A DNA stretch of 64,000 nt. It comes from Ilumatobacteraceae bacterium (lineage in GTDB: Bacteria > Actinomycetota > Acidimicrobiia > Acidimicrobiales > Ilumatobacteraceae). This document shows, in pieces, positions 29,405 to 37,964 of this stretch. The DNA is taken from assembly GCA_021298195.1 (NCBI GenBank), contig JAJTEQ010000002.1, positions 1 to 64,000 on the forward strand, written 5' to 3'. Made by a program: the position numbers and the translations under genes. Under the pieces are notes generated by a model. The model saw nothing but the letters and a program-made list of their open reading frames with translations, did not search any database and was not told the DNA's origin. The number at the start of each line of letters is the position of its first letter. The first letter of the stretch is position 1.

Positions 29405-31333
29405 TCAGCGGGTGATGTGGCGCAGGAATTCCTCGACCTCTGATCGAGTCGTGGATCTTCGCATGGGGGGCATGGTGGCCAGGATCTCGCGGCGGTAGCC
29501 CTTCGTGCCGAGACGCGGGTCGAAGACCGCCACCACGCCCCGGTCCGAAGCGTTTCGGATGAGTCGGCCGGTGGCTTGGGCCAACAATGTGGCCGCTCTC
29601 GGAAGATCGATGTCGCGGAACGCGCGATCGCCCAGGGCTTCCCGACGAGCACTGAGCAACGGATCGTCGGGTCGGGGGAAAGGTATGCGATCCAAGGTGA
29701 CGAGGGAGAGCGTGCGCCCCGGGATGTCGATGCCCTGGAAGAAACTGGCCGTGGCGAACAGACACGACGTTTCGTCGTCGGTGAACATCCTGACCAGCTG
29801 ACCGCGCTGGTATTCGTTCTGCGCGAAGATCGTGACGGTCAGACGTTTGCGCATCTCGGTGACCGCGGCATCCATGGCTTTGTAGCTGGTGAAGAGGGCC
29901 AACGTGCGCCCACCAGCCGCCGTGATGAGATGGAACAACTCGTCGTGCATGCGCGGGGTGAACTGCAGCGAGTTGGGTTCGGGTAACGAGGTGGAGCAGT
30001 ACAGAATCGAGTTCTCGGGGTAGTCGAAGGGACTCTCGACGTCGAGCATCACCGTGTCGTCGACGGGAAGCCCGATGCGCGCGGGCATGTTGGAGGGAAT
30101 CGTGGCGCTGGTGAGGATCGCCGGATGTTTCGTCCAGACGCCCTCTCTCAGGATCGGGGCCACGTCGAGGGGTGCGATGTCCAGTTTGGGTCGGTCGGCG
30201 CGACCGGTCACGAAGGGGACGAACGTGGAGTCGATGGTGAGCGCCGCGTCGAGGGTGTCGGCGAGACGAGTGGCCAGCATCTGCGCGCGCAACTTGCGTT
30301 GGTTCGAGTCGTCGTCCTTGGTCTCGATGCGTCTCAGCCCGTCGAGGGTGTTCCCCACCACCCGACGTCCGGTGGCCAGAACCTCGGCGACGTTCGCGGG
30401 TAGCGGAGCATTCAGGCGGTTGCCGAGATGCGGAGCCAGAACCTCGTCGAGCATCAGTCCGACGTCGGTGATCTCTTGATTCAGTTTGGGGTCGTCGAGG
30501 ATCCGCCGAACCGCGCCCGCGAAGTACGTGAAGCTGCCCTCTCCGATGGAGATGCCGACGGTGTCGCTCATGATGTCCTCGAGACCGTGAGCCTCGTCGA
30601 CGATGACGATGTCGTGTTCGGGCAACAACGCCCCGTCGGATGCGATGTGATTTCCGTACAGGTGCGTGTTCACCACGATGATCTCGGCCTCGGCCGCACG
30701 AGCGCGGGCCATCTCGGCGAAGCAACTGCCGCCGAAGGGGCATCGGTTGGCGCCGGGGCATTCTTCGCTGCCCACCGAAACGGCGAGGGTTGCTCGTTCG
30801 GACGGATTGAAATCCAGGTCGGCGAAATCCCCCGTGGGTGTCGTGGCGGCCCAGGTGACGATGCGATCGATCTCGCGCCTGTTGGTCGCCGAGAAGTCGT
30901 CGAGATCGAGCAGCGTGGGAGAGTCGTCGCGCTTGCTCTTGCCGACCACTTGTCCCGTCACCTCGGCGATGCGTTGACGGCACACGTAGTTGCGTCGACC
31001 CTTCAACACGGCCCACGACACTTCGTGTCCGAGATAGTCGCTCAGCGTCTCGACCAGAAAGGGGAGGTCCTTCTTGGCCAGTTGGTCCTGCAGAGCCTTG
31101 GTGGCGGTGGCCACCACGGTGCGCTTGCCCGCCAGCATGGCCGGAACGAGATAGGCGATGGTCTTGCCCGTGCCGGTGCCCGCCTGCACCACCAGGTGAC
31201 GTCCCTCGGCGATGGCTTCTTCGACCGCGGTGGCCATTTGGCGCTGCCCCGGGCGGGTCTCGGCGGCGGGAAGCGCCGCGGTGGCGATCTCCAGCGCGTC
31301 GCTCAGGGTACGACGGGAGGACGATGTGGGCAC
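29405..31333 (-). CDS. dinG: DinG-family ATP-dependent helicase (XPD-like)
   Basis: Length 642 aa. Walker A QAGTGTGKTIAYLVP near residue 50 and DEAH box VDEAHGLED. Four Cys suited to an Fe-S cluster lie in YVCRQRI, EECPGANRC and FGGSCFAE, and helicase motif VI is QATGRLIRN near the end. These make it a 5'-3' Fe-S helicase of the DinG/YoaA type, which resolves DNA or R-loop structures. GTG 31333 is favoured because TACCGT ends 6 bases before it. The frame runs far upstream, but that part overlaps uppS antisense to its codon pattern. It converges with the response regulator gene. Confidence 0.9.
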   Translation of the reverse strand: MPTSSSRRTLSDALEIATAALPAAETRPGQRQMATAVEEAIAEGRHLVVQAGTGTGKTIAYLVPAMLAGKRTVVATATKALQDQLAKKDLPFLVETLSDYLGHEVSWAVLKGRRNYVCRQRIAEVTGQVVGKSKRDDSPTLLDLDDFSATNRREIDRIVTWAATTPTGDFADLDFNPSERATLAVSVGSEECPGANRCPFGGSCFAEMARARAAEAEIIVVNTHLYGNHIASDGALLPEHDIVIVDEAHGLEDIMSDTVGISIGEGSFTYFAGAVRRILDDPKLNQEITDVGLMLDEVLAPHLGNRLNAPLPANVAEVLATGRRVVGNTLDGLRRIETKDDDSNQRKLRAQMLATRLADTLDAALTIDSTFVPFVTGRADRPKLDIAPLDVAPILREGVWTKHPAILTSATIPSNMPARIGLPVDDTVMLDVESPFDYPENSILYCSTSLPEPNSLQFTPRMHDELFHLITAAGGRTLALFTSYKAMDAAVTEMRKRLTVTIFAQNEYQRGQLVRMFTDDETSCLFATASFFQGIDIPGRTLSLVTLDRIPFPRPDDPLLSARREALGDRAFRDIDLPRAATLLAQATGRLIRNASDRGVVAVFDPRLGTKGYRREILATMPPMRRSTTRSEVEEFLRHITR

Positions 31334-31339
31334 GTCGCC

Positions 31340-31345
31340 ACGGTA
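31340..31345 (-). promoter_or_regulatory. -10 element of dinG
   Basis: TACCGT ends 6 bases before GTG 31333; the same hexamer stands at uppS. Confidence 0.55.
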
Positions 31346-31407
31346 CAGCAGGTCCGGGCGGGCCCATTGATCACCGAACGGATGAATCGATTCGGTGTGA
31401 GGGTCGC

Positions 31408-32094
31408 TCAGTGTGGTGACGGCGACGCACGTCGTGCCAGGGCGACGGCGTCCGCGAGATCGGTCGACGAGTAGTCGGGCCAGGCCGCCTCGGCGAACGA
31501 GATGGGAGCACCGTGCGACTGCCACAGGAGAAAGTTCGAGACGCGGGTCTCGCCCGACGTGCGAACGAGAACGTCGACCGGAGGAAGTTCGGGCTCGTAC
31601 AGGCACGAGCCGATGGATTCCACGGTGATGTCTTGGCCGGTACGCCGGAGGGTTTCGGCGGCATGGGCGATCTCGGTCCGACTTCCGTAATCGAAGGCCA
31701 CCGTCAGCGTCATTCCCGTGTTCGCCTCGGTGTCGCGGATGGCTTTGGCGATCGCGCGCTGAACGTATCGCGGGGTTCTCGCCGCTCGATCGTCGAAGGG
31801 GCGGCCGATCCAACGCACGCGCACGTTCAATTCGTTCAGCTCCGCGACGCGCCCGAACAACTTCTCGTGCAGACCGAGGATGTGGCGCACCTCCTGGCGG
31901 GGCCGCACCCAGTTCTCGGTGGAGAAGCCGAACACCGTCAGATGATCGACGCCCAGACGCACCGCCGCACGAACCACGGCGGCCAGGTTCTCCTCGCCCG
32001 CCGTGTGGCCAGCGGTTCGCGGGAGACCTCGTTGTCGGGCCCATCGGCCGTTCCCATCCATGATGCAGGCGACGTGCACGCCAGAACGGTACAT
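31408..32094 (-). CDS. uppS: cis-Prenyltransferase, catalytic subunit (UppS-like, lacks C-terminal RxG)
   Basis: Length 228 aa. The catalytic P-loop MDGNGRWARQRG with its key Asp is near residues 12-23. HTAGEENL, TVFGFSTENW and RTSGETRVSNFLLWQ (diphosphate and IPP binding) follow. All catalytic motifs are present, so it can make a Z-polyprenyl diphosphate, the lipid carrier for wall synthesis. The C-terminus is odd: after AWPDYSSTDLADAVALA the protein ends ARRASPSPH, without the RRFGG (RxG) motif that completes the active site in homodimeric UppS. The neighbouring divergent gene has that motif. ATG 32094 is given; a GTG at 32079, 6 bases after TACCGT, may be the true leaderless start. Confidence 0.9.
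   Translation of the reverse strand: MYRSGVHVACIMDGNGRWARQRGLPRTAGHTAGEENLAAVVRAAVRLGVDHLTVFGFSTENWVRPRQEVRHILGLHEKLFGRVAELNELNVRVRWIGRPFDDRAARTPRYVQRAIAKAIRDTEANTGMTLTVAFDYGSRTEIAHAAETLRRTGQDITVESIGSCLYEPELPPVDVLVRTSGETRVSNFLLWQSHGAPISFAEAAWPDYSSTDLADAVALARRASPSPH
32086..32091 (-). promoter_or_regulatory. Candidate -10 element of uppS
   Basis: TACCGT ends 6 bases before an in-frame GTG at 32079. If used, the protein would begin M-HVACIMDGNGRW, five residues shorter. Confidence 0.4.
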
Positions 32095-32143
32095 CGTCGG
32101 AGCAGTCGATCGTCGGAGCCACCGCGCGCCATCGCCCGTCGGC

Positions 32144-32149
32144 AACAAT
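32144..32149 (+). promoter_or_regulatory. Candidate -10 element of the Nus1-like gene and recO
   Basis: AACAAT ends 6 bases before the GTG at 32156. It faces away from the uppS element 53 bp away, so both promoters share one short region. Confidence 0.4.
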
Positions 32150-32155
32150 GGGAGC

Positions 32156-32716
32156 GTGTTCAGCCGCATCCGACGTCAGCGCGAGGCCAAGGTCTCGAGT
32201 TCGGGTCCCCGATTGCTCCACGTGGTCGTCGCCGGCGGGGAACTCGACGACTGGGAGGCGATGACCGCCGCGCAATGGACGGCTCGGGTCGGGTTGTTGG
32301 CCGCCGTGGCCGCGACCCATGGTGCGCGCTGGGTGACGGTTTTCCCGTTCGGCTCACGGCCCGTGCTCGGTTGCCAGATGACGTCGACGTCGTACGAGGT
32401 CGACGGGGTGCACGTGCTCGTGTCACCGCATGCCGACGGGCGCCGGCGCATCGCCGAAACGCTGCGGGGCGCCACCGACGTCGAATTCGACGAGGATTCG
32501 GTCGAGCAACTCCTGCACGGCGACGCCGGCGAACCCGATCTGGTCGTCGTGCTCGGGAGTGACGACCGCCTTCCCCCGTCGTTGGTGTGGGAACTCGCGT
32601 ACAGCGAATTGGTCTTCCTGCCGGTCGATTGGTCCGTCCTCGACGGTGAGCGACTGGACGACGCGCTCGGGGTGTATTTCGGTCGCGAGCGTCGTTTCGG
32701 TGGAGTCGATGAATGA
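32156..32716 (+). CDS. Nus1/NgBR-like non-catalytic cis-prenyltransferase homologue
   Basis: Length 186 aa. The C-terminal half clearly follows the UppS fold: PDLVVVLGSDDRLPPSLVW, AYSELVF and FGRERRFGG. This aligns with the UppS stretch that normally reads RTGGEHRISNFLLW, AYAEL.F and ANRERRFGG. The N-terminal half keeps strands HVVVAGGE and WVTVFPFG but lacks the MDGNGRW catalytic loop, so it should be inactive alone. Absence of catalytic residues with retention of the RxG motif is the pattern of eukaryotic NgBR/Nus1. It stands head-to-head with uppS, whose product lacks RxG, and overlaps recO (ATGA). I infer it is the accessory subunit of a two-subunit enzyme. Confidence 0.7.
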   Translation: MFSRIRRQREAKVSSSGPRLLHVVVAGGELDDWEAMTAAQWTARVGLLAAVAATHGARWVTVFPFGSRPVLGCQMTSTSYEVDGVHVLVSPHADGRRRIAETLRGATDVEFDEDSVEQLLHGDAGEPDLVVVLGSDDRLPPSLVWELAYSELVFLPVDWSVLDGERLDDALGVYFGRERRFGGVDE

Positions 32717-33483
32717 CCTCGCGCCTGTATCGGGACCGAGGAATCGTTCTGCGCACCTACAAATCCGGTGAGGCCGATCGCATCATCGTGTTTCTCACCG
32801 AGAACAACGGGAAGGTGCGAGCCATCGCCAAGGGCGTTCGCAAGACCCGGTCCAAGTTCGGTGGTCGACTCGAGCCGTTGTCGTTGTTGGACGTCCAGTT
32901 GCATCGGGGGCGCGATCTGGACATCGTGAACCAGGTCGAGACGGTCGACAGCACCAACAACGTGTTCGGTGACCTCGACTCCATGACCGAGGGCATCGCC
33001 GTCCTCGAGGCGGTGGATCAATTGGTGCCCGATCGAGAACCGGTTCCCCACATGTACCGAATGCTGGTGGGAGTTCGCCGGACGTTGCTCACGCGTCCGT
33101 CGCCGCTGGTGGTGCCGGCCTTCTTGTGGAAGTTGCTGGCGTCCGAGGGTGTGCACCCGGTTCTCGATCGTTGTTCCCAGTGCGGCGAGGTTCCCGAAGG
33201 CGACAACGAGTTCGGCTCCTTCGACGTTCGTCACGGGGGAGTGACGTGTTCGGCCTGTCGAGCGGGTATCCCGGTCAGTGGACCCGCCCTCGAATTGATG
33301 CGGGAGATTCTCGGAGGGCGCCTCGGTGACGCCCTGGACAAAGCGTTTCATCCCGAGGGCCAAACCCTCGACGATCCGGTGATCAACGAGGTGTCGAATC
33401 TGGCGACTCGTGCCTTCGAGCATCACGTGGAACGGCGCCTGAAGTCCGTCTCCATATTCGAGCGGCACGATTCGGGTTCGTGA
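32713..33483 (+). CDS. recO: DNA repair protein RecO
   Basis: Length 256 aa. N-terminal OB fold (LYRDRGIVLRTYKSGEADRI, then FLTENNGKVRAIAKGVRK), a helical domain, and a zinc motif C-x2-C ... C-x2-C (CSQCGEV and CSACRAG, about residues 155-180). RecO loads RecA onto SSB-coated DNA with RecR. The ATG overlaps the stop of the Nus1-like gene by 4 bp. In mycobacteria recO is also next to uppS; here the Nus1-like gene lies between them. Confidence 0.92.
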   Translation: MTSRLYRDRGIVLRTYKSGEADRIIVFLTENNGKVRAIAKGVRKTRSKFGGRLEPLSLLDVQLHRGRDLDIVNQVETVDSTNNVFGDLDSMTEGIAVLEAVDQLVPDREPVPHMYRMLVGVRRTLLTRPSPLVVPAFLWKLLASEGVHPVLDRCSQCGEVPEGDNEFGSFDVRHGGVTCSACRAGIPVSGPALELMREILGGRLGDALDKAFHPEGQTLDDPVINEVSNLATRAFEHHVERRLKSVSIFERHDSGS

Positions 33484-33500
33484 ACGGGCGTTCGTGCCCT

Positions 33501-33506
33501 TAGCCT
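33501..33506 (+). promoter_or_regulatory. Candidate -10 element of glyS
   Basis: TAGCCT ends 8 bases before ATG 33515. It supports this start over the upstream GTG at 33494, which lies ahead of it. Confidence 0.45.
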
Positions 33507-33514
33507 TCACCGTC

Positions 33515-34825
33515 ATGCCGGCCGCGGACCTCGAACAGATCGTCAACTTGTGCAAGCGGCGGGGGTTCGTCTACCCGTCGGCCGAGATCTACGGCGGCTT
33601 CCGCAGCTCCTACGACTACGGTCCGCTCGGGTCCTTGATGTTGCGCAACGTGCGTGAGTCGTGGGTTCGCACGATGGTTCAGAAGCGTGACGACGTGGTG
33701 TTGATCGACGCGGCCATTCTCGGCCCGCCGCAAGTGTTCGAGGCCAGTGGTCACCTGGCGAACTTCAGCGACCCCTTGGTCGACTGCAAGAAGTGCAAGC
33801 AGCGTTTTCGTGAGGATCACCTCGAGAACCCCGCGGTCTGCCCGGGTTGCGGTTCGGAGGGAACCCTCACCGAGGCCCGAGCGTTCAACCTGATGTTCAA
33901 GACGTTCGCCGGCCCGGTGGAAGGGTCCGGCGCCGAGGTCTACTTGCGGCCGGAAACGGCCCAGGGCATGTTCGTCAACTTCACGAACGTCTTGCAGACC
34001 AGCCGCAAGAAGCCGCCGTTCGGAATCGCCCAGGTCGGCAAGAGCTTCCGAAACGAGATCACTCCGGGCAACTTCATCTTCCGTACCCGCGAATTCGAAC
34101 AGATGGAGCTGGAGTTCTTCGTCCCGCCGGCCGAGGGTCCGAAGTGGTACGAATATTGGTGCAACGCGCGCATGCAGTGGTACGTGGATCTCGGCATCCC
34201 GGCGGACATGCTCCGCTTGCGCGCACACGACGCCGACGAGTTGTCCCACTATTCGGCCGGTACCGCCGACGTCGAGTTCGCCTATCCGTGGGGATGGGGA
34301 GAGCTGGAAGGCATCGCGCAACGCACGAATTTCGACCTGAACCAGCACGCGACGCACTCGGGTCAGAAGCTCGATTACTTCGATCAGTCGACCAACGAAC
34401 GCTACGTGCCCTTCGTGATCGAACCGGCCGCGGGCGTGAATCGTGCGATGGCCGCGTTCCTGCTGGCCGCGTACGAGGAGCAGCAGGTGGGCGACGAGGT
34501 GCGAACCGTCCTGCATCTGCATCCCCGCCTGGCTCCGTACAAGGTCGCCGTGCTTCCCCTCAGCAAGAAAGACACGCTCACCCCGCTGGCGCGTTCGATC
34601 TTCGAGTCGCTTGGCGAGCGTTACATGGTGGATTACGACGACACTCAGTCGATCGGCAAGCGCTATCGCCGGCAGGACGAGATCGGGACGCCGCTGTGCG
34701 TGACCGTGGACTTCGACTCGCTCGAGGACGGAGCCGTCACGATTCGCGAGCGCGACTCGATGGAGCAGGTCCGCATCCCGATCGCCGATCTCGAAAGCGA
34801 AATCCGGTCGCGCCTGGGCTTCTGA
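33515..34825 (+). CDS. glyS: Glycyl-tRNA synthetase (alpha2 type)
   Basis: Length 436 aa. Class II synthetase: ADLEQIVNLCKRRGFVYPSAEIYGG at its start matches GlyRS closely (shown in pieces here: LCKRRGFVYP, AEIYGGFRSSYDYGP). A zinc ribbon is present (CKKCKQRF and CPGCGSEG). Motif 2 is FRNEITPGNFIFRTREF, then motif 3 includes GVNRAMAAFLL. The C-terminal anticodon-binding domain follows. It attaches glycine to tRNA-Gly. The start at ATG 33515 gives the expected N-terminus; the alternative GTG 33494 adds seven residues. Confidence 0.95.
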   Translation: MPAADLEQIVNLCKRRGFVYPSAEIYGGFRSSYDYGPLGSLMLRNVRESWVRTMVQKRDDVVLIDAAILGPPQVFEASGHLANFSDPLVDCKKCKQRFREDHLENPAVCPGCGSEGTLTEARAFNLMFKTFAGPVEGSGAEVYLRPETAQGMFVNFTNVLQTSRKKPPFGIAQVGKSFRNEITPGNFIFRTREFEQMELEFFVPPAEGPKWYEYWCNARMQWYVDLGIPADMLRLRAHDADELSHYSAGTADVEFAYPWGWGELEGIAQRTNFDLNQHATHSGQKLDYFDQSTNERYVPFVIEPAAGVNRAMAAFLLAAYEEQQVGDEVRTVLHLHPRLAPYKVAVLPLSKKDTLTPLARSIFESLGERYMVDYDDTQSIGKRYRRQDEIGTPLCVTVDFDSLEDGAVTIRERDSMEQVRIPIADLESEIRSRLGF

Positions 34826-34826
34826 C

Positions 34827-34841
34827 CCTCGGGGTCCGAGG
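34827..34841. other. Short hairpin after glyS
   Basis: CCTCGG-GGT-CCGAGG directly follows the glyS stop. It has no T-run, so it is at best a weak terminator. TACTCT just beyond (34844-34849) may be the -10 of the next gene. Confidence 0.3.
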
Positions 34842-34891
34842 TCTACTCTGTGAGGTAGGGCTCGTCGTCGAGTCGTCACTCAGGAGGGAAC

Positions 34892-35197
34892 ATGTCCAAG
34901 GTCGCCGTCATCGCCAAAATCTCCGCCCAGGAAGGAAAGCGCGCGGACCTCGCCCGCGCCCTGCAAGCGGCGCTCGACACCGCGCAGGGTGAGCCGGGCA
35001 CCGAGGCCTACATCCTTCTCGAGGACGCGTCGGACGCGAACCTGTTGTGGATGTACGAGATGTACACGAACCAGGACGCGTTGACGGTTCACATGGGTTC
35101 CGACGCATTCAAGGCGCTCGGACCGGCGATCATGCCGTTCCTGGCCGGTCGCCCCGAACTGATCTTCGTGACCCCCATTGGTGGCAAGGGCGCCTGA
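34892..35197 (+). CDS. Antibiotic-biosynthesis-monooxygenase (ABM) domain protein
   Basis: Length 101 aa, a single ferredoxin-like ABM domain: VAVIAKISAQEGKRADLARAL, EPGTEAYILLEDASD, LWMYEMYTNQDALTVHM, then LAGRPELIFVTPIGG. YgiN-type quinol monooxygenases and heme-degrading enzymes share this fold; the activity here is unknown. The ribosome site AGGAGGGAAC directly before ATG is one of the strongest in the window, which suggests high expression. trpC follows after 2 bp, so it leads the trp transcript. Confidence 0.8.
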   Translation: MSKVAVIAKISAQEGKRADLARALQAALDTAQGEPGTEAYILLEDASDANLLWMYEMYTNQDALTVHMGSDAFKALGPAIMPFLAGRPELIFVTPIGGKGA

Positions 35198-35199
35198 TC

Positions 35200-35991
35200 T
35201 TGTCCCCGCCGGCGACGTACCTCGATCGCATTCTCGATTGGCATCGTCGTCGGGCCTCCGACGATCAGCGTCGTCGCGACGACCTCGAGGCGCGATGTCT
35301 GACCATGTCGCCCCCTCGGGGATTTCGTTCGCGCCTGGCCTCGGATTCGCGCGACGGTTTGAGCGTCATCACCGAGATCAAACGACGCTCTCCGTCCAAA
35401 GGTGATCTCAATGCCGACCTCGACCCGGCCGAGATGGCCGAGAACTATCGACAGGGGGGAGCGAGTTGCCTGTCGGTCCTGACGGACGAGGAATTCTTCG
35501 GGGGTTCGATACAGGACCTGCAGATCGCGTCGGCCGCCAGCGGGTTGCCGGTCCTGCGCAAGGATTTCACGGTGAGTGCATTGGACGTGCTCGACGCTCG
35601 TTTGATGGGCGCCGACTGCGTTCTGTTGATCGCGGCGGCGTTGTCCGACCGTGAGTTGGCCGAGTTCCACGGGTTGGCGCGCGCCGTGGGTTTGGACGCG
35701 TTGGTCGAGATCCACGACGAGGCCGAGTTGGAACGCGCCGTGGGCGTCGGAGCCGATCTGATCGGGGTGAACCAACGCGACCTGGTCACGTTTCGTGTCG
35801 ATCACGAGCGGGCCCTGCGGATGGGATCGGTCATGCCCGATTCGGTCGTGCGGGTGGCCGAGAGCGGAGTACGGGACGCCGCCGACGCTCGTTCGTTGCG
35901 TGACGCCGGCTACCAGGCGGTTCTGGTGGGTGAGAGCATCGTCACCGCGTCCGACCCCCGGGCCGCCGTTCGCGAGTTGCGCACGGTCTGA
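35200..35991 (+). CDS. trpC: Indole-3-glycerol phosphate synthase
   Basis: Length 263 aa from a TTG, the only start in frame before the family N-terminus (ATYLDRILDWHRRR). Active-site segments: EIKRRSPSKGDL (catalytic Glu and Lys), SCLSVLTDEEFFGGS, LRKDFTV, VNQRDL and VAESGV. A TIM barrel that closes the indole ring from CdRP in tryptophan synthesis. It starts 2 bp after the ABM gene. No Trp-codon attenuator peptide was found upstream. Confidence 0.93.
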   Translation: MSPPATYLDRILDWHRRRASDDQRRRDDLEARCLTMSPPRGFRSRLASDSRDGLSVITEIKRRSPSKGDLNADLDPAEMAENYRQGGASCLSVLTDEEFFGGSIQDLQIASAASGLPVLRKDFTVSALDVLDARLMGADCVLLIAAALSDRELAEFHGLARAVGLDALVEIHDEAELERAVGVGADLIGVNQRDLVTFRVDHERALRMGSVMPDSVVRVAESGVRDAADARSLRDAGYQAVLVGESIVTASDPRAAVRELRTV

Positions 35992-36032
35992 CGGGCGGTC
36001 ACGACATCCACTGACGTCGTCGAGGAGCGGTA

Positions 36033-36038
36033 TACCCT
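36033..36038 (+). promoter_or_regulatory. -10 element of trpF
   Basis: TACCCT ends 6 bases before ATG 36045, giving trpF its own leaderless start within the trp region. Confidence 0.5.
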
Positions 36039-36044
36039 CGGGAC

Positions 36045-36698
36045 ATGTTCGTGAAGATCTGCGGCATCACGTCCGAGGACGATGCACTGCTCGCCGTGGC
36101 CATGGGAGCCGACGCCGTCGGGTTCATCTTCGCACCGTCACCGCGCCAGGTGTCGCCGCAGGTCGTCTACGACATCACCCGTCGGTTGCCGCCCGAGATC
36201 CTGACCGTCGGCGTGTTCAAGGACGAGCTGTCGGACCGCATCTTCGACGTCGTCAGTCGTTCGGGAGTGAAGGCGGTTCAGTTGCACGGTCAGGAACCGG
36301 CCAGCACCGTGGCGGCCGTCTCGGAGACCGTGCGCTGGGTGATCAAGTCGGTGGTGGCCGGTAGCCGTGAAGCGCGAATCGCGAACCAGTTCGGAACCGA
36401 TCTGGTCTTGGTGGACGCACCAGAGCCGGGCTCGGGTCGGGTCTTCGACTGGTCGTTGGTGGATCAGGTGCCGTCCGGCATCCGATTGATCCTGGCCGGT
36501 GGTCTGACCCCGGAGAACGTGGCGTCGGCGGTGGAGTACGTGAACCCCTGGGGGGTGGACGTGTCGTCCGGCGTCGAGTCGGCTCCGGGACGCAAGGACC
36601 CGTTGAAGGTGAAGCGATTCATCGAGAACGCCCGGGCCGCGGCCCCCGCCGAGTTCGAGGGGGGCGACGACTTCCCGTACGACTGGGCGGACGAATAA
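36045..36698 (+). CDS. trpF: Phosphoribosylanthranilate isomerase
   Basis: Length 217 aa, TIM barrel. The N-terminal VKICGIT holds the catalytic Cys; the catalytic Asp is in LVLVDAPE; phosphate binding is by LILAGGLTPENV and GVDVSSGVE. It isomerises PRA to CdRP. A dedicated TrpF is notable: many Actinobacteria (Streptomyces, Mycobacterium) lack trpF and use the dual HisA/TrpF enzyme PriA. The acidic tail FEGGDDFPYDWADE is an extension. Confidence 0.93.
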   Translation: MFVKICGITSEDDALLAVAMGADAVGFIFAPSPRQVSPQVVYDITRRLPPEILTVGVFKDELSDRIFDVVSRSGVKAVQLHGQEPASTVAAVSETVRWVIKSVVAGSREARIANQFGTDLVLVDAPEPGSGRVFDWSLVDQVPSGIRLILAGGLTPENVASAVEYVNPWGVDVSSGVESAPGRKDPLKVKRFIENARAAAPAEFEGGDDFPYDWADE

Positions 36699-36757
36699 CA
36701 CACCCCGACGCCGATAACGACTGTGTCGTTCTGGCGCGGGAGTGCGAACATGGGATC

Positions 36758-36774
36758 GTGCGCACCGGGCGCAC
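36758..36774 (+). other. Small perfect hairpin in the trpF-trpB gap
   Basis: GTGCGC-ACCGG-GCGCAC lies 20 bp before the trpB ATG. It is too short for a terminator and has no T-run; it may simply be a structured leader. Confidence 0.3.
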
Positions 36775-36794
36775 TGCTGGTCCGCGGAGATCCC

Positions 36795-37964
36795 ATGAAC
36801 CCCACACCCTCCATCATGTCGCAGCCCTCGTCGTCGGGTCGCTTCGGTGAATTCGGTGGGCGATTCGTTCCCGAAACGCTCGTCCCGGCCTGTCAGGAAC
36901 TCGAAGCGGCCTTCACGGAGGCGTGGGCCGATCCGATCTTCCGAACGGAATTGGACTCCATCCTCAAGGAGTACGCCGGACGTCCGTCGATCCTGACCGA
37001 GTGCCATCAGCTCGGTGCACGACTCGGAATTCGTCTCCTGTTGAAACGCGAGGACCTGAACCACACCGGTTCACACAAGATCAACAACGTTCTCGGTCAG
37101 ACCCTGCTGGCCAAGCGCATGGGCAAGAAGCGCATCGTCGCCGAGACGGGTGCCGGCCAGCACGGGGTGGCATCGGCGACCGCGGCGGCACTGATGGGTT
37201 TGGAATGCAAGGTCTACATGGGGGCCGTCGACGTGGAGCGTCAGGCCCTGAACGTGTTTCGCATGAAGTTGTTGGGCGCCGACGTCGAGGCGGTCCACTC
37301 GGGAAGTCGCACCCTCAAGGACGCCGTGAACGAGGCGATGCGCGACTGGGTGGCGTCGGTCGAGAGCACCCATTACTGCCTCGGTTCGGTGATGGGCCCC
37401 CATCCGTATCCGTGGATGGTTCGTGAGTTCCATCGTGTCATCGGAAACGAGGCGTACGCCCAATGCCAGGAACGAATCGGGGACGTTCCCGACGTCGTGG
37501 TCGCGTGCGTCGGCGGCGGATCCAATGCCATCGGGATCTTCTCCGGTTTCGTGGACACCCGAGCGCGCTTGATCGGGGTCGAGCCCGCCGGTGGTGCCGC
37601 CGTCGGGCGCGGCCAACCCGGTGTCGTTCACGGCATGCGCAGTTATCTGATGCAGGACGAGTACGGACAGGTGTTGGAGGCGCATTCGGTGTCGGCCGGC
37701 CTCGACTATCCCGGCGTCGGACCGGAGCATTCGTATCTGGCGTCGATCGGTCGTGCCGAGTATCCGACCGTGACCGATGCCGAGGTGATCGAGGCTTTTC
37801 AGTTGATGGCCCGCACCGAGGGCATCATTCCGGCGTTGGAATGCGCGCATGCGGTCGCCTGGATCTCGCGAGAGGCGCCGAAGATGCAGGGTCAGACGAT
37901 CCTGATGAATCTGTCCGGACGGGGCGACAAGGACGTCGGACAAATGATGGAGATCCTGGGCTGA
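36795..37964 (+). CDS. trpB: Tryptophan synthase beta chain
   Basis: Length 389 aa. PLP-dependent: [15 protein letters not shown] at the N-terminus, catalytic Lys in [10 protein letters not shown] (about residue 89), AETGAGQHG, and the phosphate loop [10 protein letters not shown]. It condenses indole and serine. The ATG at 36795 has GGAGA 5 bases upstream. A GTG at 36723 is in frame, but the extra residues are unlike TrpB. The stop overlaps the trpA start by one base (TGATG). Confidence 0.96.

Follow-up and report, generated by a model that had tools for sequence, protein, structure and literature searches.

How could undecaprenyl diphosphate synthase (UppS), which has been described as an essential enzyme and an antibiotic target, work in a bacterium in which it has lost its C-terminal RxG tail? 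This question is raised by two head-to-head genes in the window, the whole stretch of 64,000 nucleotides of an Ilumatobacteraceae genome that we analyzed. The initial annotation proposed that this lineage makes its polyprenyl carrier with a split enzyme. Our analysis supports that interpretation: no second complete UppS was found in the 91%-complete genome, none of 111 genomes with the RxG-less form is without the partner gene, and the two chains show complementary residue loss. We consider it highly likely from the sequences that the pair encodes a single undecaprenyl (polyprenyl) diphosphate synthase of two subunits, in which the tail of the partner would complete a single active site.

Two divergent cis-prenyltransferase genes next to recO

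The features of the locus are collected in Table 1. The recO start overlaps the stop of the partner gene (ATGA), and the intergenic stretch presumably contains both promoters. All 78 named loci that hold both genes have them in divergent orientation, and recO is the same-strand neighbor of the partner in 75 of 80 named loci (400-bp rule); in the other five, recO is likewise part of the locus. Downstream of recO (window positions 33494-37964), reading of the translations suggests a glycyl-tRNA synthetase gene followed by trpC-trpF-trpB.

Table 1. Coordinates of the cis-prenyltransferase pair and its flanking genes in the window
Feature	Position	Strand	Basis
Catalytic subunit, UppS-type cis-prenyltransferase without C-terminal RxG tail	31408..32094	-	228 aa; PF01255, TIGR00055, AlphaFold2, VIA
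Non-catalytic partner, degenerate cis-prenyltransferase with RxG tail	32156..32716	+	186 aa, GTG start; PF01255, AlphaFold2, VIA
RRFGG codons (RxG tail) of partner	32690..32704	+	Sequence; RRFG in 112/112 distinct partners
Divergent intergenic stretch, 61 bp, between catalytic and partner genes	32095..32155	.	Sequence
recO	32713..33483	+	TIGR00613, 128.1 bits (cut-off 48.7)
YoaA/DinG-type helicase gene, other flank of locus	29405..31366 (stretch searched)	-	NF053712, 478.9 bits, under cut-off of 680; synteny

The open frame of the catalytic gene extends to 32169, and its length is counted from the ATG. As the initial annotation had described, with coordinates that agree with ours, the chain carries all catalytic motifs (MDGNGRW, FSTENW, and RTSGETR) and ends in ARRASPSPH, without RRFGG. 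Its PF01255 match (215 bits) covers positions 1-209 of the 219 in the profile, and it scores over the cut-off of the uppS model TIGR00055 (195.3 bits; cut-off 109.55). Its closest relatives are bacterial enzymes (T. fusca, 176 bits, vs. human DHDDS, 112 bits), and its AlphaFold2 single-chain model (pLDDT 87.7) matches T. fusca dodecaprenyl diphosphate synthase with a VIA Z of 27.0 (2.3 Å over 217 residues). An RxG was present in none of 106 distinct complete catalytic sequences, a count that leaves aside two contig-cut rows (L177 and L180) and one fragment (L040). Restoration of the tail by frameshift or stop-codon read-through was also considered and rejected: no RxRxG-like motif occurs in any frame within about 30 codons downstream in the 122 of 125 collected loci that have the stop and enough sequence beyond it.

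The head-to-head neighbor, described in the initial annotation as a 186-aa protein 61 bp away with RxG at its end, is confirmed as a family member by its PF01255 match (38.4 bits, E 1.3e-9, curated cut-off 27). This match covers profile positions 144-219, and its C-terminal end reads FGRERRFGGVDE. Since the catalytic match stops at 209 and the partner match reaches 219, the last ten positions, which hold the RxG tail, are present only on the partner. Its TIGR00055 score (26.6 bits) is under the cut-off of 109.55, and its best sequence match among solved structures is E. coli UppS (45.7 bits; human NUS1, 18.4 bits). In the AlphaFold2 single-chain model (pLDDT 88.8), the last five residues have pLDDT below 50, as expected of a free tail. 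The model matches cis-prenyltransferases over its range 16-183 (VIA Z up to 12.1, 3.8 Å over 154 residues), so that the whole partner, not the tail alone, is predicted to have the cis-prenyltransferase fold. NgBR is absent from the 50 VIA matches listed for the partner, which speaks neither for nor against a relation.

The partner model contains no N-terminal membrane helix; its first helix spans residues 29-34, and residues 1-20 are hydrophilic by reading. Among the rows listed, partner N-termini are short and without conservation. An NgBR-like membrane anchor was considered and dropped, as a short basic N-terminus is found mainly in the genus of the window and in g2 (70 rows listed, by reading). 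Over 103 rows, the 30 residues upstream have a mean net charge of +0.35; thus, the basic N-terminus is no family trait.

The genome that contains the window (2.39 Mb, 107 contigs, 91% complete) matches PF01255 only at these two genes. A second complete UppS, which could have done the essential job in place of the pair, was thus sought in this 91% of a genome and none was found. The genome also contains two PF00953 matches (MraY/WecA type), which use the lipid carrier, so the carrier is needed; as the pair is the only cis-prenyltransferase found, it presumably makes the lipid carrier for peptidoglycan. We also weighed whether the pair is a true heteromer that makes a side product, with the essential carrier coming from an unrelated, unrecognized synthase. 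Product length cannot be read from sequence, and eukaryotic heteromers are reported to make longer chains (PMC7573591; PMC7839719). Against a side product, the pair occurs with no other PF01255 member in near-complete genomes, for example in three single-contig genomes that are 99% complete (G042, G067, and G192). No further family of undecaprenyl diphosphate synthases is known to us, and we judge the side-product explanation to be very unlikely.

Partition of conserved residues between the two chains

We took a census of conserved residues in one alignment of 30 catalytic chains, 30 partners, and 26 ordinary UppS sequences. Every catalytic chain keeps Asp26, Asn28, Arg30, Arg39, His43, Phe70, Ser71, Glu73, Asn74, Trp75, Arg77, Arg194, Glu198, Arg200, and Ser202 (30/30 each). 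Retention at six further positions is 0/30 for Tyr211 and Gly244 and 1/30 each for Glu213, Arg239, Arg241, and Arg242; all six residues are kept in 30/30 partners. The partners, whose N-terminal half was placed with a sequence-only alignment and is less certain, and for which E. coli numbering was checked in the C-terminal half only, have lost Asp26, Asn28, Arg30, Arg39, His43, Asn74, Trp75, Arg77, Arg194, Glu198, and Ser202 (0/30 each) and partly keep Phe70 (5/30), Ser71 (4/30), Glu73 (4/30), and Arg200 (14/30).

In the human enzyme, as described in the available part of one report, the RxG tail of NgBR crosses the dimer interface into the DHDDS active site, where its backbone contacts the phosphate of the IPP site, and Arg290 matters for activity (PMC7573591). 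Since the residues held by the partner include those of the RxG tail that work in trans in the human enzyme, we infer by analogy that Tyr211 and Glu213 may also act in trans. The exchange at the E213 site is incomplete rather than absolute: the residue is Glu in 112/112 distinct partners and still Glu in 12 of 106 distinct complete catalytic chains.

In the proposed enzyme, the catalytic subunit would bind farnesyl diphosphate, IPP, and Mg via its own set of Asp26, Asn28, Arg30, His43, Ser71, Asn74, Arg77, Arg194, Arg200, and Ser202, whose roles are taken from established UppS chemistry. The partner, with the same predicted fold and a seemingly dead active site, would take the place of the second chain in the usual dimer of cis-prenyltransferases. 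Its C-terminal R-x-G tail, probably together with Tyr211 and Glu213, would cross the interface and complete the single active site, and the product would presumably be the lipid carrier for peptidoglycan. The best reading is that each heterodimer has a single, composite active site like that of DHDDS/NgBR, which evolved independently.

The RxG-less UppS could instead be a working homodimer and its neighbor a UppS-derived regulator or binding protein that tunes it without completing the active site. M. mazei MM_0014 is described as a homodimer without RxG, so the motif is not strictly needed in every cis-prenyltransferase (PMC8131916), and human DHDDS alone is reported to be weakly active and able to form homodimers (PMC7573591). 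That the two genes need not adjoin (G401 and G333) also fits a regulator. However, a regulator need not preserve Y211, E213, R239, R241, R242, and G244 in 30/30 sequences, or RRFG in 112/112 distinct partners, and the RxG-less form never occurs without the partner gene (0/111 genomes). We therefore regard a homodimer with a regulator as improbable.

Conservation of the partner also bears on whether it is a functionless, decaying pseudogene of an old uppS. It sits at the ancestral uppS place, its catalytic loop is gone, its mean column identity is lower than that of the catalytic subunit (42% vs. 68%), and in 2 of 113 copies the frame is broken or contains an in-frame stop. But the frame is uninterrupted in 111 of 113 genomes (in two as contig-cut pieces), and 81 rows share 21 invariant columns, mostly (18) in the C-terminal half, which leaves a pseudogene hardly credible. 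Partner rows were selected with a score threshold; for the first 48, RRFG was a second requirement, and it removed no row. The sequence counts exclude one contig-cut partner (L071) and one with a broken frame (L132) and include a C-terminal piece behind an in-frame TAG (L117).

Occurrence in Ilumatobacteraceae and origin of the pair

We surveyed 121 genomes of the family using PF01255 and a profile built from 37 partners. An RxG-less UppS was present in 111, and in all 111 the pair was complete in gene content; relatives with the RxG-less form and no partner gene, whose existence would speak against a split enzyme, were sought and none appeared. A pair that recurs in 111 of 121 genomes goes well past what chance would give. 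Three of the 111 have a damaged partner, with a broken frame in G400, an in-frame TAG in G339, and a split over two contigs in G351. We read the broken frame and the TAG as draft-assembly errors, which is not proven. Four genomes contain full-length UppS only, and the partner is absent from all four (G331, G272, G361, and G409). The partner occurs without the catalytic gene in two genomes, in both at a contig end (G071 and G341), and neither gene was found in four (G327, G349, G362, and G394).

A first sample of 41 genomes gave a similar picture. PF01255 matches were present in 21 of 23 same-genus genomes; 20 of these, the window's own genome, and one other same-family genome had two matches, and one same-genus genome (G022) had only the catalytic gene, in a locus cut at the contig end. 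All 16 same-order genomes from other families had one full-length match. With the partner profile, 22 of 23 family members in a class sample of 296 genomes scored at least 163.8 bits, and among the matches listed no non-family genome exceeded 103.0 bits, the level of ordinary UppS tails. In a phylum sample of 296 genomes, 10/10 family members scored at least 180 and no non-family genome exceeded 103 among the matches listed. Both samples were drawn evenly from larger groups.

When 84,980 genomes were scanned for the motif of the partner, 154 relatives were found, and the best 80 of them were retained. Among these 80 are Ilumatobacter nonamiensis YM16-303 (L141), many metagenome genomes labeled Ilumatobacteraceae or Acidimicrobiia, and three with the implausible label Bifidobacterium breve. 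Of the 80 named loci, 78 contain both genes; in the other two (L164 and L166), the contig ends close to the partner. The named loci overlap in part with the loci of the surveyed genomes, and sequence counts therefore refer to distinct sequences. The split arrangement marks the whole family, which the named relatives identify as Ilumatobacteraceae. The two genes lie on different contigs in four genomes (G333, G340, G388, and G405), at contig ends in G340 and G388, and are separated by about 9 kb in G401 and 2.3 kb in G415. As the genes are apart in G401, G415, G333, and G405 (L123, L124/L111, L069, and L070), linkage is not obligatory.

Other cis-prenyltransferases were seen outside the family. 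Many Acidimicrobiia have a second full-length paralogue in which FSTENW is changed (L093-L100 and L086-L090; LSTDN in L097); this type was not found in the survey of 121 family genomes. Weak partner-profile matches in two actinobacterial families, f98 and f101, were considered as split enzymes and rejected, as the UppS, whole or as two in-frame pieces, extends to the profile end. In four of these genomes (L229-L232 and L234-L237), UppS matches PF01255 as two overlapping in-frame pieces, at about 1-103 and 89-219, which suggests an insertion or rearrangement in the middle. Three genomes of about 1 Mb in family f39 (L081-L083) have a strongly diverged UppS that ends in RKRTYG or RNRTYG, not RRFGG.

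The position of the genes points to how the pair arose. In 19 of 20 ordinary same-order loci outside the family (L003-L018 and L074-L077; the exception is L018), uppS immediately precedes recO on the same strand, and recO is a marker of the ancestral uppS position. Since the family partner holds this place, the partner is by position the old uppS, and it looks like a decayed one. Synteny also supports the catalytic gene as an added copy in the opposite direction. One family member, G331, has a uppS of the ordinary kind with the helicase gene on one side and recO on the other, an order also found in 4 of the 16 loci L003-L018 (L004, L010, L011, and L014); within the locus stretch examined, the helicase gene was not seen beside the others. 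In Ilumatobacteraceae, the original uppS upstream of recO would thus have decayed in place to become the partner, and a second, divergent copy would have become the catalytic subunit and lost its tail.

Phylogenetic trees place the catalytic chains in a single clade with a long stem (1.96 changes per site, support 100). The partners likewise group as a single clade in a tree on the C-terminal 76 columns, too few to name a sister. One clade each fits a single origin, and the closeness of the catalytic chain to bacterial enzymes speaks against descent from a eukaryotic heteromer. Tree distances of catalytic chains and partners are correlated when recO is controlled for (partial r 0.66, permutation p 0.001, 75 loci), and the partner-recO correlation given the catalytic chain is -0.08 (75 loci). 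Agreement beyond recO is as expected of interacting chains, with recO a modest control.

The family members without the pair show a further history. The recO tree groups G331, G361, G349, and G272 with support of 94, and the place of this group within the family is not fixed. In genus g29, represented by the last three (L239, L240, and L242), the helicase gene and recO are close neighbors with no uppS between them. The foreign-type UppS of the g29 branch groups with that of family f3 (support 99). Joint loss of both genes in g29 was dropped as an explanation because of the recO grouping; the simpler story is that the G331/g29 branch left before the split and later swapped uppS for another type. 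G409 also has a full-length foreign-type UppS and no pair; other members of its genus carry the pair, but this genome is 72% complete and recO was also not found, so it carries no weight for either history. The distinct full-length type in these genomes (L045, L046, and L047 in G272, G361, and G409; L018 in G026 of f3) ends in RRRRMG, RRRRKG, or KRRKGG, with no recO in the locus stretch examined. Its presence in three family members and an f3 genome is a probable lateral replacement of uppS.

Taken as a whole, the pair is likely to be an independent bacterial repeat of the DHDDS/NgBR invention, in which a homodimeric ancestral UppS was duplicated and the copies decayed complementarily, one retaining the in-cis active site and the other only the residues supplied in trans. 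The essential cell-wall carrier would then be the product of an obligate heteromer whose one active site is composite.

Relation to known cis-prenyltransferases

In its available part, one review assigns heteromeric cis-prenyltransferases to fungi, animals, and plants, and homodimeric ones to bacteria and plants (PMC7839719); the corresponding part of a 2025 plant review adds nothing on bacterial heteromers (PMC13247534). The initial annotation was aware of no bacterial case, and our search of the literature, mostly open-access with few subscription papers or preprints, also gave none.

Human DHDDS/NgBR, yeast Rer2/Nus1, and plant CPT/CPTL are likewise described as a catalytic subunit with an inactive homologue; inactive homologues of the NgBR type resemble other cis-prenyltransferases mainly in the C terminus, with RxG in NgBR and plant LEW1 (PMC7573591; PMC7839719; PMC13247534). 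The eukaryotic precedent invoked in the initial annotation holds for NgBR, which carries RxG (PMC7573591), but not for yeast Nus1, which is reported to lack a canonical RxG and to have Asn there (PMC7573591; PMC7839719). Unlike NgBR, the bacterial partner has no N-terminal membrane helix in its model. In sequence, the closest relatives of both bacterial subunits are bacterial UppS proteins rather than DHDDS or NUS1, and the catalytic chain ends where DHDDS continues into a C-terminal domain. The M. mazei pair MM_0618/MM_1083 is likewise reported as a prokaryotic two-subunit enzyme for a glycosyl carrier lipid (PMC8131916), but it is archaeal and is compared here by description, not by sequence.

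Ordinary homodimeric UppS of E. coli, B. subtilis, and T. fusca shares family, fold, and catalytic residues with the catalytic subunit. The ordinary chain carries its own RxG, whereas in Ilumatobacteraceae catalysis and tail are on different proteins. The trans-type enzymes HexA/HexB and HepS/HepT differ from cis-type enzymes in fold and chemistry. They too are described as bacterial isoprenoid synthases with two different subunits (PMC7839719).

The pattern of loss predicts that R239, R241, R242, and G244 act in trans in ordinary UppS dimers; that Y211 and E213 would do so is a new prediction. Since sister families and G331 retain a living single enzyme of the ordinary kind at the same locus, it is possible to date and retrace how a heteromer arose by complementary loss. 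If the split enzyme is real, bacteria would offer a soluble heteromer as a simple model for human DHDDS/NgBR, defects in which cause disease. As heteromers are reported for eukaryotes and in one archaeal case and none was found for bacteria, we take the pair as new, as a probable bacterial form, evolved independently, of a known heteromeric architecture, and not as a member of the NgBR/Nus1 family.
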